Positions 56,603 to 64,000 of a stretch of 64,000 bases of DNA are shown here, piece after piece. This DNA is from Alphaproteobacteria bacterium. GTDB lineage: Bacteria; Pseudomonadota; Alphaproteobacteria; Rickettsiales; SXRF01. The DNA is taken from positions 310,001 through 374,000 of the forward strand of contig JAGVLO010000003.1 in assembly GCA_020049775.1 (NCBI GenBank). The letters are read 5' to 3'. Position numbers and translations under genes: made by a program. The notes under the pieces are model-generated. The model saw only the letters and a program-made list of their open reading frames with translations. It searched no databases and was not told the DNA's origin. Position 1 is the stretch's first letter. The number at the start of each line of letters is the position of its first letter.

Positions 56603-58192
56603 ATGGCAACGTTTAATAACACCCGTAAAGATTCGCCTATCTCGGCCGTGGAATTCATCAAGGTTCCGGATGGAAACTTCACGTTTTTTTATGTGGATTC
56701 GCCGTCGCAGAAGGAAGCAGTCAAGCAGTGGCTGACTTCAAAAGATGTCGGTCAGGAAGTCATTGCGGAAACCAAGATACATAAAACCGACGACATGGTC
56801 GAAGACCGTACCGTGATTGTAACGCATGGTGACAAGACCGAAGCGGACCTACGCAAATTGCTTGCGGACAAGGGTGATACCCTTGAGCCGAAGAAAGACA
56901 AGCAAGCATTGATGGATTTCTGGACGCTGCGCAGCATTATCAGCGTGGTAGGCCAGTCGCTGCAGATCTTCTCTTCGTATTTCCGCCTTACTGAAAATAA
57001 AACTACAGGTGCGTGGGAGCGCAGGGGCATAGACGGCTCCATCATGACATTTGCCGTACTTAACATGCTTGCGAATGCCTCGAACTTTTTGTTTGGCTCG
57101 GAAAAAAAGCCGGATGATGACCATCTCGATTTCTTAAAGAAGCGCTTCAATGAAAAAATTAGCCCGCATCTTCCGCCCGGCGAACAGCCGATAGACCCGA
57201 ACGATAGTTGCGTTAAGCAGCGTGAAGGCGAAGGCAGGCCGCCGAGCATGGGTGAAAAGATGTGGGAATTCATGCGCCAGAATTCAGTGCGCGTGGGTGA
57301 AATCGGTCTGCGCTTTGCAGCAGCTATTGCTCTTGTAGTGCCTATGAACAAAGGCCGTGATACTTTTGGAGGCTGGCGTGAATTAATTAAAGGCATATTC
57401 ACCGGCAACGGCGTAGAAGCGCTGAAAGCTGGCCTAAACAAAAACTCCCTGCAACTGGCCGCAGGTAGTTTGTATCTGGGCGGAAAAACGCTTGCGCTCT
57501 TTACCAAAGTCGCGGATCCGTATGAGAAAAAGAAACACACTATGCTCGATACGGTGCGTGAAGATTATGTCTTTCAGATTGGTTCGCTGACCGAAGCCGT
57601 AGCAGGCAGCATTGTGGCGTTGAACGCCTACAACAGCAAAATTGAAGTGGGCGGCAAAGCGGTGCGTGACTGGGCGGGTACTATTGGCGGCGGTTTATTC
57701 TCTACTGGTTATCTGATTCGCCTTGGCGCCAAGTTCGGCGAAAAGCAAATGAACATGAAAGAATTGCAGGCGCATGTTACCGATAACCTTGCTAAGGTTA
57801 CTCCCGCGCAATTGCCACAGTTGCTTGCTGAATCTGCTGCGGCAATCAAAGATCATTTCAAGGATAAACCTCTGGAATTTGGGCAGGTCTATACGCAGAT
57901 GATGAGCGACCTGTACCGCTATCACCATATCGCTTTTGATAATCTTGGCACCGAGCCGCAGGAGCGCCTTGCTAAAATCAAAAGCAAATGCGACCAGAGT
58001 TTGGCAGACCCCAATCATCCCGGCCACACGCCGGAAGAGGCTGCTTTGTGCAAAATTGTTTCTGAGCCTGCGTCGCAAGAAAAAGATACGCGTAACAAGA
58101 AATTGGCACAAATTGCCAACCGTACACCCGCCACTACCTATGTGGAAAAGACAATCAAGTCTGACGAACCTGCCGTCAATCTGGGTATTTAG
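56603..58192 (+). CDS. Large membrane-associated hypothetical protein, paralogue of the 363-aa protein
   Basis: The 529-aa protein has a soluble N-terminal domain (about 1-105, with FIKVPDGNFTFFYVDSPSQ), then hydrophobic helices at about 110-130, 145-165, 235-255, 290-310, 330-350 and 365-385 in the order seen in the 363-aa protein, and a helical C-terminal region with VTPAQLPQLLAESAAAIKDHF. Shared features with the paralogue are the segment order, GSIMTFAVLNMLANASNFLFG versus ALTGAIWAIGGIGAARYG, and a terminal helical domain. No named domain was recognised. It converges with the DctA-type gene, 20 bases apart. Confidence 0.75.
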   Translation: MATFNNTRKDSPISAVEFIKVPDGNFTFFYVDSPSQKEAVKQWLTSKDVGQEVIAETKIHKTDDMVEDRTVIVTHGDKTEADLRKLLADKGDTLEPKKDKQALMDFWTLRSIISVVGQSLQIFSSYFRLTENKTTGAWERRGIDGSIMTFAVLNMLANASNFLFGSEKKPDDDHLDFLKKRFNEKISPHLPPGEQPIDPNDSCVKQREGEGRPPSMGEKMWEFMRQNSVRVGEIGLRFAAAIALVVPMNKGRDTFGGWRELIKGIFTGNGVEALKAGLNKNSLQLAAGSLYLGGKTLALFTKVADPYEKKKHTMLDTVREDYVFQIGSLTEAVAGSIVALNAYNSKIEVGGKAVRDWAGTIGGGLFSTGYLIRLGAKFGEKQMNMKELQAHVTDNLAKVTPAQLPQLLAESAAAIKDHFKDKPLEFGQVYTQMMSDLYRYHHIAFDNLGTEPQERLAKIKSKCDQSLADPNHPGHTPEEAALCKIVSEPASQEKDTRNKKLAQIANRTPATTYVEKTIKSDEPAVNLGI

Positions 58193-61611: not shown

Positions 61612-63372
61612 CTATTGCAGTTTTTTGCTGCTCGTATCCGGCGATGTGCGGCGCTCGAGAATCATTTTCACATGCGTGTTGTCCGGCAGCTCTGCGCCGT
61701 CAAATTCCTTACGGATGCGCTGCGTGCTGTAACCATGCTTGTGGTGATCAAGGTGCTTGAGGTCGTAATGCTGGGGAATTGAACCGAGAAAATCCTCGAG
61801 ATTGAAGGGTAAATAGTCTTCGTTCATTTCGCGCGTCCAGTTTTCCTTATAAGGAGACGTCAGCAGAAAATGCACAAGCGAGCGGTTATTTTCAAGCGGC
61901 CCCCATCGTTGTTCCCATTCGGCCAGCCGGTCGGGGTCGTAGTTTTTTCGTACCTTTTCCACAACTTCCGGATCAGATGGTCGGTCAGTCTTGGTACTGA
62001 CCATCATGTCGCGGATGGCGATATAATCAAATTCCGAATTCCACACCTTGTCCCAGAATTGCTCGCGTTCCTTGGGAGGCAGATAGGCATAAATCTCATG
62101 GATGAGTGAAGACAGTACCAGCACGGATTTTCCCGGATTTTCCTTGCGCGCTTCCTTTACCTTATCGCACACGTCCTGCCAGTTATTGCTGAACTCAACA
62201 CCCATGGCATCTTTGCGTGCAAGCGCCAGCATGGGTTCTGAAATATCGTAACCAATACATATGCGCTCAGGGTTTTCCTGTTTCAGGTATTTAAGCATGG
62301 CGCCATCAGCACAGCCGAAATCAACTATGATGCCCGCGTTTTCAATGCGGTTGAGGTAGTCCACCTTGTCCGGCATACCCTGGCGCATACGATCGATATA
62401 GGTCTGCATGGCGGGAATGAAGGTGTCGAACCCTTTTTGCGGCACGAGTGTTTGCAGCGCTTCCTTGCCGTAATTTGCAACCACCGCAAGCGTGGCAGGG
62501 TGGAACAAATACTCCTGCAGTGAAACGCCGCTGGGGTCGTAATATTCGGTGCCGAAATCGAACACGCTTTTCATCTGGTTGATGTCGCGTTGCTTCTGCA
62601 AGGTATCATCCAGCACATGTGCGCAACCCGCAAAATCCACCTTGCCGTGCTGTTTCTGGCACATGCCGATAACTTGGCGCGTGCGTATGCCTGCTTCTTT
62701 GCTTACGCGGTCAAGCGTAAGGTCAAACAGGCTTACGGGAATATTATGTTGTTCAAGCAATGCGCGGTCGGGGTTTGCGGCGCGCGCCTTCTGCGCCAAC
62801 TCTAGCATATAGTCTTTGTTGCAGAATGACAGGTTGTCATCCGCACTCAGTTCCACGCCTAGTTGCGAGGTACGCCATGCCGGTACATTTACCGGCTCAC
62901 TATTATATTCCAGTGATGGAAGACCTTCTTTGATAATCTGTTTGGCTACGAGCGGCGCGTCAAGCAGGAATGTTTTCCCATCGTCTGTGTTGCGTCGCTC
63001 CGGCCTTGTCATAAGCACAGTTTCGCTGCGTATGCCCTGCGGCGTATCCAGTCCGCATTTTTTTAGGAAAGCGGTGTCATCTAGCTTAGCAAGCAAAGCC
63101 TTTGACCATGATTGTTCTGCATCAAAATCTGCCATGGGAATAATGACAGCGCCTGAAGATGGTGGCACGGCACGTTTGATGTCTTCTACCTGTTGTTCAA
63201 GCGTCAGCGGTGTTTTAATCGGGTCATAAGACGGGTGTTCGTGGTTGTTTTGTGAACGCACCACAATAACAGGCGTAAGTCCGCGGGCTTTCGCTTCCTC
63301 CACCTGTTCAAGGTGACGCTCTGAGAAGGGCTGGAAGCGGTGGATAATCAGGGCGTATTTAGGATCGGTCAT
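61612..63372 (-). CDS. Fusion of a degenerate NMNAT-like nucleotidyltransferase domain and a SAM methyltransferase
   Basis: The 586-aa protein starts with a nucleotidylyltransferase-like segment, IIHRFQPFSERHLEQVEEA (9-27), where the usual RFQPFHxGH motif has Ser 17 and Arg 19 in place of His and Gly while His 20 remains. A Rossmann-like stretch follows (PVIVVRSQNNHEHPSYDPIKTP). Residues 140-340 are helical and unassigned. From 345 a class I methyltransferase fold has motif I VDFGCADG (350-357) and GYDISEPM (374-381), then VLVLSSLIHEIYAYLP. I know no named family with this order. Its ATG overlaps the upstream membrane-protein stop (ATGA). The substrate may be a nucleotide or RNA, but this is a guess. 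Confidence 0.75.
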   Translation of the reverse strand: MTDPKYALIIHRFQPFSERHLEQVEEAKARGLTPVIVVRSQNNHEHPSYDPIKTPLTLEQQVEDIKRAVPPSSGAVIIPMADFDAEQSWSKALLAKLDDTAFLKKCGLDTPQGIRSETVLMTRPERRNTDDGKTFLLDAPLVAKQIIKEGLPSLEYNSEPVNVPAWRTSQLGVELSADDNLSFCNKDYMLELAQKARAANPDRALLEQHNIPVSLFDLTLDRVSKEAGIRTRQVIGMCQKQHGKVDFAGCAHVLDDTLQKQRDINQMKSVFDFGTEYYDPSGVSLQEYLFHPATLAVVANYGKEALQTLVPQKGFDTFIPAMQTYIDRMRQGMPDKVDYLNRIENAGIIVDFGCADGAMLKYLKQENPERICIGYDISEPMLALARKDAMGVEFSNNWQDVCDKVKEARKENPGKSVLVLSSLIHEIYAYLPPKEREQFWDKVWNSEFDYIAIRDMMVSTKTDRPSDPEVVEKVRKNYDPDRLAEWEQRWGPLENNRSLVHFLLTSPYKENWTREMNEDYLPFNLEDFLGSIPQHYDLKHLDHHKHGYSTQRIRKEFDGAELPDNTHVKMILERRTSPDTSSKKLQ

Positions 63373-64000
63373 TTGCTTTTGCCCCCGTCGAGTTCACGCA
63401 TGCCCTGAACTGCCGTCAATATGTCGTTTAGCCCTTCCATCAATTCATTGCCCCGGGCAGTCCACATCATAGAAGGCGGTAGGCTGGCGACTTTAGCATG
63501 GTCACCTACCAGTAGAAAAATCACACCGAACAAAACACCCTTTCCGCGTGCCAGCATTTTTCGGTAACCATCATAAAATTCGCTGCGGTCTTTGCCGGTT
63601 TTTTCGAACTCCTTTTTACGCTTGACCTCTTCCTCATGCAATCCGGCTTCTATCATGCCGTATGCCGCAGGAACCGATGCGAGTTGTATAGCTGTGCCGA
63701 GTAACCAGCGGCGATTATACTTTTTCTCATACTCTATCAGCGGCTCGTGCATATAGGCATAATTGATGCTTCTTATTTCGCTGTCGCTCAAACCTTCTTT
63801 TTCGTCTTTTGCTTCCAGCCTTTGTATTTTTGCCTCGGTATATTCTGTACTGGCTTCACTAAGCATTCTTTTCTCAAAACCGCTGAGTACGCGGTTGATG
63901 GGAATGTCGCGTGACAGCGCGTTTTGCAGCCGTGTAAAAAAACTGGTGACGGCCTTGTCGCCTTTAGCGAATAATTTTTCGATAAAACGTTTGGCCGTGC
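63369..64000 (-). CDS. C-terminal part of a membrane protein, 5' end beyond window
   Basis: The frame is open from the right edge to a TGA that overlaps the start of the methyltransferase fusion gene. About 209 codons are visible. An ATG at 63866 exists, but the reading continues upstream without a stop through plausible protein sequence (FIEKLFAKGDKAVTSFF, then LSRDIPINRVLSGFEKR), so the real start is probably outside. A charged, helical region is followed by two hydrophobic helices (around WLLGTAIQLASVPAAYGMIEA and GVLFGVIFLLVG) and a soluble tail. I recognise no family. The coupling implies the two proteins work together. Confidence 0.7.
   Translation of the reverse strand, partial: TAKRFIEKLFAKGDKAVTSFFTRLQNALSRDIPINRVLSGFEKRMLSEASTEYTEAKIQRLEAKDEKEGLSDSEIRSINYAYMHEPLIEYEKKYNRRWLLGTAIQLASVPAAYGMIEAGLHEEEVKRKKEFEKTGKDRSEFYDGYRKMLARGKGVLFGVIFLLVGDHAKVASLPPSMMWTARGNELMEGLNDILTAVQGMRELDGGKSK

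Follow-up and report, generated by a model that had tools for sequence, protein, structure and literature searches.

What does a protein do in which a nucleotidylyltransferase-like domain that has lost catalytic residues is followed by a complete methyltransferase (MT)? This question is raised by an ORF in the window, i.e., the whole 64,000-nucleotide stretch of DNA analyzed here. A sequence-only reading had described a degenerate NMN adenylyltransferase (NMNAT) domain with a complete class I MT behind it, and this description was confirmed: the 586-aa ORF with its ATG start, the RFQPF stretch at residues 12-16 (RFQPFSERH over residues 12-20), the replacement of His17 by Ser, the retained His20, and the MT motif I are all present. 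The parts of the ORF and the adjoining gene are as follows.

61612..63372, minus strand: whole ORF (586 aa), comprising an NMNAT-like domain, a linker, and a class I MT
62641..63372, minus strand: residues 1-244, degenerate NMNAT (nucleotidylyltransferase-like) domain, from homology, family alignment A4, lost residues, the 1ej2 profile match, and the model with VIA-align
63322-63324 and 63313-63315, minus strand: codons of Ser17 and His20, respectively
62419..62640, minus strand: residues 245-318, linker, mostly helical by prediction and partly of low confidence (full-length model m70a1f5473e05)
61648..62418, minus strand: residues 319-575, class I SAM-dependent MT, corresponding to the whole length of its phage homologues, from Pfam, phage matches, and the model
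62302-62325, minus strand: MT motif I VDFGCADG, residues 350-357
63369..64000, minus strand: upstream gene (237 aa in full, L010:11370-12083), sharing an ATGA overlap with the fusion ORF

The fusion ORF is intact at C12:371615-373372 in the window's genome (2.54 Mb, 15 contigs) and is probably co-transcribed with the upstream gene, for which we found neither a family nor a match among the 54 relatives searched. Relatives of the linker were not seen either. GC3 is 0.525 in the N-terminal part and 0.597 in the MT part. The neighbors of the fusion gene are genes for a DHHA1-domain protein and a sulfatase, an orphan gene, and a Kdo-kinase-like gene below cut-off; no NAD gene was found among the neighbors examined, which we count against a function in NAD metabolism. 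Elsewhere in the window, a 529-aa protein (56603-58192, plus strand) passed the cut-off of no Pfam or NCBIfam model, and a PHROG search at E 0.1 yielded nothing for it. Beyond the right end of the window, an AbiEi/AbiEii toxin-antitoxin pair lies beside a 2OG-Fe(II) oxygenase (AlkB-like) gene (L010:17127-19388). A defence-island reading was dropped, because PADLOC returned a single weak motif-I match for the fusion protein (mad2, E 2.7e-4) and the AbiE pair is several genes away.

The nearest relative of the N-terminal domain was found in the same genome, on another contig. Residues 5-244 matched a 1222-aa NMNAT-NAD synthetase (NMNAT-NadE) protein (L011:6390-10058) with an E-value of 1.4e-26 and 35% identity (range, 32-35%). 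Following its NMNAT start, this protein has CN_hydrolase and NAD_synthase domains above the Pfam cut-offs, i.e., a glutaminase and an NAD synthetase, where the window protein has an MT. The gene adjoins nicotinamidase-like and nicotinate phosphoribosyltransferase (NAPRT)-like genes in an NAD-salvage locus (L011:6390-13517, G000:C13), in which Pfam NAPRTase_N was above cut-off and the NCBIfam nicotinamidase and NAPRT models were below it; the nicotinamidase-like gene had no Pfam match at E 0.01. An apparently ordinary NadD gene (L132) is also present in the genome. Two genes beside the NAD locus (L011:3421-6380, minus strand) encode a radical-SAM protein, assigned by Pfam, and a protein of 519 aa without a Pfam family at E 0.01.

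Judged by its sequence, residues 1-244 are a member of a small NMNAT subfamily. A subfamily profile (A3) gave some match in 31 of 343 genomes of the order and strong matches (at least 160 bits) at ten places in nine genomes, namely four open frames of more than 1100 aa, four stand-alone genes, one gene truncated where its contig ends, and the window protein itself; the same profile found nothing in viral contigs. Those of the long frames that were scanned (L011, L012, and, partially, L140) are NMNAT-NadE proteins. Beside the L012 gene, a phosphoribosyltransferase gene (NCBIfam PRK09198; L012:6798-8412, plus strand) is split over two overlapping frames, apparently through a frameshift that is either in the gene itself or an assembly error. 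The window domain itself scored just below the cut-off of Pfam CTP_transf_like (E 4.9e-4, 20.7 bits against 21), and the ten-row profile A4 matched the archaeal NMN adenylyltransferase 1ej2 (E 1.7e-8). Weak matches to PDB sequences of angiotensin-converting enzyme (E 0.06) were taken as chance, and an hhalign comparison of A4 with alignment A7 was left out because its score was inflated by the presence of the window row in both.

An AlphaFold model of residues 1-244, built with 37 viral NMNAT rows in the alignment, which favors an NMNAT fold, predicted a Rossmann-like core with a mean pLDDT of 69 (blocks of 69-94 within the first 120 residues, lower thereafter). The best VIA-align partners of this model were NMN adenylyltransferases, led by NMNAT-Nudix 2qjo (Z 13.1, rmsd 3.5, 187 aligned residues) and 2r5w/2qjt (Z 12.2) and followed by archaeal NMNATs and phosphopantetheine adenylyltransferases. 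The N-terminus thus has a predicted nucleotidylyltransferase fold, the lack of which had been named in advance as evidence against the sequence-only reading. Foldseek was weak, with no match at E 0.001 or better and the best NMNAT at rank 7 (E 0.025). Since the full-length model, made without NMNAT rows, has the same order of strands and helices over the first 100 residues, the concern that the fold was imposed by the NMNAT rows is reduced. A combined two-domain alignment (A8) was discarded, as it placed NMNAT rows on the MT half.

NadM-type NMNATs (1ej2; NMNAT-Nudix 2qjo and 2qjt) therefore share a fold and a sequence family with residues 1-244, yet the window copy is heavily altered. In alignment A4, 12 of the 31 positions invariant in nine relatives are changed (G11H, R13F, H17S, G39R, N54T, Q64D, K125E, D128N, R169S, A184C, P186K, and T214S) and 19 are kept, whereas other subfamily members change 0-3 of the invariant positions, or up to five when the window row is omitted. 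R13F is no loss, because Phe occupies this position in all 37 viral NMNATs. Measured against these viral enzymes, the window copy has lost 14 of 29 near-invariant positions, including G11, H17, G19, and G39, and has kept the other 15, including R12, P15, H20, D82, and W89; the viral rows themselves show a median loss of 0 and a worst loss of 4. In the GxxxPxHxxH motif, Gly11 has become His and His17, present in 9 of 9 relatives and 37 of 37 viral rows, has become Ser, with His20 retained. In the C-terminal S/N-A-x-x-(L/I)R motif, the Arg invariant in the nine relatives is Ser169 in A4; it is also missing in A7. As confidence is low in this stretch, the precise column of the Arg is uncertain. 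The sequence-only reading had named the first His and the Gly of the active-site motif as lost. The former is indeed gone, but the latter (Arg19 in the window copy) is weaker evidence, being Gly in only four of the nine nearest relatives (A4), though in 37 of 37 viral rows, and the stronger losses of Gly11, Gly39, and the SAxxLR Arg had been overlooked. The own-genome NMNAT-NadE and its relatives in the order have a similar N-domain with the catalytic residues intact. Unlike the NMNAT-Nudix proteins, the window protein has no Nudix match, its C-terminal part being an MT.

Asp82 and Trp89 align with Asp80 and Trp87 of 1ej2, residues that we take to line the nicotinamide pocket. The domain may therefore still bind a pyridine nucleotide, for which the remaining pocket is plausible, and the earlier proposal that it binds a nucleotide rather than adenylylating it is borne out in direction by this pattern of lost catalytic and kept, presumably pyridine-site, residues. 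In cyanobacterial NMNAT-C, Ala at either motif His is reported to lower the activity substantially and Ala at both to nearly abolish it (PMC13036487). Because one motif His is lost and one kept, the sequence by itself is compatible with weak activity; as Gly residues and the Arg have been lost too, no or very poor adenylyl transfer is predicted, and the domain is most likely a pseudoenzyme.

The METHYLTRANSFERASE half of the protein, the MT, scored above cut-off for the Pfam families Methyltransf_23, Methyltransf_25, and Methyltransf_11. Seven phage records, two of them of one phage, were matched by residues 297-575 at most, the matches spanning nearly the whole phage proteins at 33.5-43% identity. 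Among them, the MTs of Sinorhizobium phage Phosso (XYS97204.1) and Agrobacterium phage Atu_ph07 (AUZ95404.1) are 40-43% identical over the whole MT part but stand alone, without an NMNAT-like N-terminus, and are annotated only as methyltransferase or hypothetical protein. Single-sequence scans of genome contigs and viral contigs found no relative, and profiles were needed; with these, the family was located at 70 IMG/VR loci and 17 genome-contig loci (one of them matched over just 39 residues), and it also occurs in one plasmid record, Rhizobium leguminosarum pRlX5. The family is mainly a jumbo-phage one. The window MT keeps 30 of the 32 positions that are at least 90% conserved; alignment A6 of the family covered 58 of the 93 loci. 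In a tree of 63 chosen rows, it pairs with a viral row (98/93) within a supported nine-row clade that includes Phosso and Atu_ph07, and a second tree of 55 rows, from a set without Phosso, recovered the same clade with eight rows. The model has a class I fold with an intact motif I and a pLDDT of about 92-98 over most of residues 331-570. Its best structural neighbors, CouO, NovO, BamL, MrsA, and Hen1 (Z 13.9-15.0), lie close together and do not tell the substrate, and the variety of substrates on which they act was counted against an NAD function.

On Clostridia MAG contigs, the MT family was repeatedly found among NAD-salvage genes. In the family of the Clostridiales MAG carrying locus L124, 20 of 308 genomes have the MT, and in 14 of these it lies within about 5 kb of a nicotinamidase-like gene together with one or more of an NrtR-like Nudix gene, NadE, and NAPRT, commonly in the operon order NrtR, nicotinamidase, MT, NadE, and NAPRT. 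The 14 include the near-copies L280 and L281, and eight of the 20 loci (six of them linked) overlap the 17 genome-contig loci. The gene identities were checked for L275 and L284, the rest being assigned by phmmer similarity to NAD-gene queries; where a Nudix gene was labeled NMNAT, the label stems from the Nudix part of NMNAT-Nudix queries. At L275, NrtR_WHD, NUDIX, Isochorismatase, NAD_synthase, and NAPRTase were above the Pfam cut-offs, and among the NCBIfam models nadE (TIGR00552) and NAPRTase were above and those for NrtR and nicotinamidase below. At L284 (1378-3291, minus strand), the MT (residues 101-373) and NadE (residues 381-634) form one open frame with no stop between them, possibly through a stop missed by sequencing error; otherwise the operon MTs (L124, L275, and relatives) are separate genes. 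In the second tree, NAD-type neighbors occur in the main operon clade (13 rows) and, on other branches, at L291, L049/L104, L065/L117, and L114. The last, on a Lentisphaeria MAG contig (L114:5279-7832, plus strand), belongs to the window's own clade and carries in a row an NrtR-like gene below the NCBIfam cut-off, the MT, and an ADP-ribosylglycohydrolase gene that overlaps the MT by one base. Not all observations agree: we count against an NAD function that six of the 20 Clostridia genomes lack the linkage, that one of these six, L286, falls inside the operon clade with no NAD-salvage gene within 5 kb, and that an operon-branch MT is only 32% identical to the window MT over 210 residues. If an NAD-salvage-linked MT family is defined, as we do here, by shared invariant residues and NAD-gene neighbors, the window MT has the invariant columns of the operonic MTs and lacks the neighbors. 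Its own link to NAD is the fused NMNAT-like domain.

Viral loci gave a less clear picture. NAD genes were not enriched near the viral MTs (3 of 76 loci) compared with control loci of ribonucleotide reductase (3 of 73), which again counts against an NAD function. The former number becomes four with the nicotinamidase-like gene located 40 bases from the MT at L049, whose identity was checked with family models and which the count misses because it was made without queries taken from viral MT loci. All control matches were Nudix genes, two of the three (L303 and L364) looking like one phage, whereas those at the MT loci included nicotinamidase, NAPRT, and NadE. A neighbor scan marked 13 of 93 MT loci with NAD-type genes; L052 was not counted, since its sole NMNAT match (E 5e-6, 3.2 kb away) was unrepeated in the control comparison. 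A NAPRTase-family gene occurs in 12 of 30 chosen MT-bearing viral records and in 10 of the 15 of at least 200 kb, a co-occurrence that is only suggestive because the records are non-independent and have no matched control. A published survey gives NadV for 33% of jumbo phages (PMC9503650).

We looked for a second copy of the fusion, as the sequence-only reading had advised, and found none; the NMNAT-like/MT fusion was seen once. In the examined MT loci (the 93 without L103 and L110, which have stops in the match frame), the stretches N-terminal to the MT are short, and the exceptions L053, L079, and L082 have 111-196 residues before the MT match, too short for the 244-residue domain. The stretch in the viral L082 protein (L082:5431-6771, plus strand) is radical-SAM-like, with a Cys-rich motif recognized by eye. 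An MT profile search at E 1e-8 gave four other matches in 385 genomes of the class, all of a partial domain, and no matches in 398 genomes of the phylum. The two parts are thus separate in the relatives examined, as the sequence-only reading had envisaged as a refutation should they prove to be separate and unrelated genes; each part alone is tied to NAD metabolism, however, so that they are not unrelated.

The two halves differ in origin, one coming from a host NAD-synthesis protein and the other from a family shared with jumbo phages, and as both lead to NAD, the simplest joint account is an MT for a pyridine or NAD compound. Accordingly, we give about an even chance to the view that the gene encodes an MT of NAD (pyridine-nucleotide) metabolism, in which the NMNAT domain, dead for adenylyl transfer, acts as a module for substrate binding or recruitment. 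The pyridine sub-site of the N-domain would still bind NMN, NaMN, or a dinucleotide, and the C-domain would move a methyl group from SAM to a pyridine base, a pyridine nucleotide, or a linked NAD/ADP-ribose compound, with the dead domain either keeping hold of the substrate or guiding the enzyme to it.

An RNA target, which the sequence-only reading had also raised in the form of an RNA end, seems unlikely to us and was unsupported by the findings. Here the C-domain would modify tRNA or an RNA end, e.g., an NAD-capped 5' end, with the NMNAT-like domain recognizing the NAD or nucleotide moiety. In PHROG, the MT best matches an entry labeled tRNA methyltransferase (E 1.5e-5), and bacterial Hen1, an RNA 2'-O-methyltransferase, is a near structural neighbor sharing the class I fold (Z 13.9); however, both sequence matches cover mainly the SAM-binding motif, and the Hen1 model (NCBIfam TIGR04074) reached 13.9 bits against a cut-off of 340, over residues 344-387 only. 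RNA-ligase-like and P-loop-kinase-like genes lie near some phage MTs (3 and 4 of 93 loci by clustering, identified by eye), but in bacteria the family is repeatedly beside NAD-salvage genes. NMNATs commonly form oligomers, and dead paralogues frequently have regulatory roles, so that the domain might instead assemble with the NMNAT-NadE of its own genome, the MT modifying that protein or acting beside it. The presence of the nearest N-domain relative in the same genome and the existence of one MT-NadE open frame favor such a partnership, which we nevertheless hold to be improbable: phages and other hosts carry the MT without this NMNAT subfamily, and the fusion and NMNAT-NadE genes are on different contigs. 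Equally doubtful is an accidental fusion of a phage-origin MT to a decaying, functionless NMNAT duplicate; only a single copy was found, and its N-part is much changed and of lower GC3, but this part has stayed open and keeps its 19 invariant residues and predicted core.

Both domain types are already known, and in the accessible portion of the open-licence literature we saw no description of the NMNAT-like-then-MT order or of the MT in NrtR/nicotinamidase/NadE/NAPRT operons. Extending the pyridine-nucleotide MT reading to the family, we consider it possible, at somewhat short of an even chance, that an undescribed SAM-dependent MT family has a working role in bacterial NAD salvage in NrtR-type operons, is also shared by jumbo phages, and produces a methylated pyridine or NAD compound; the window protein would be a self-contained version whose dead NMNAT domain captures the pyridine nucleotide. 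If this is true, the NAD salvage of some bacteria would include an extra SAM-dependent step whose enzyme is carried by jumbo phages, which would bear on NAD-based phage defence and counter-defence, and the window protein would be an instance in which a nucleotidylyltransferase fold has been converted to a binding module.
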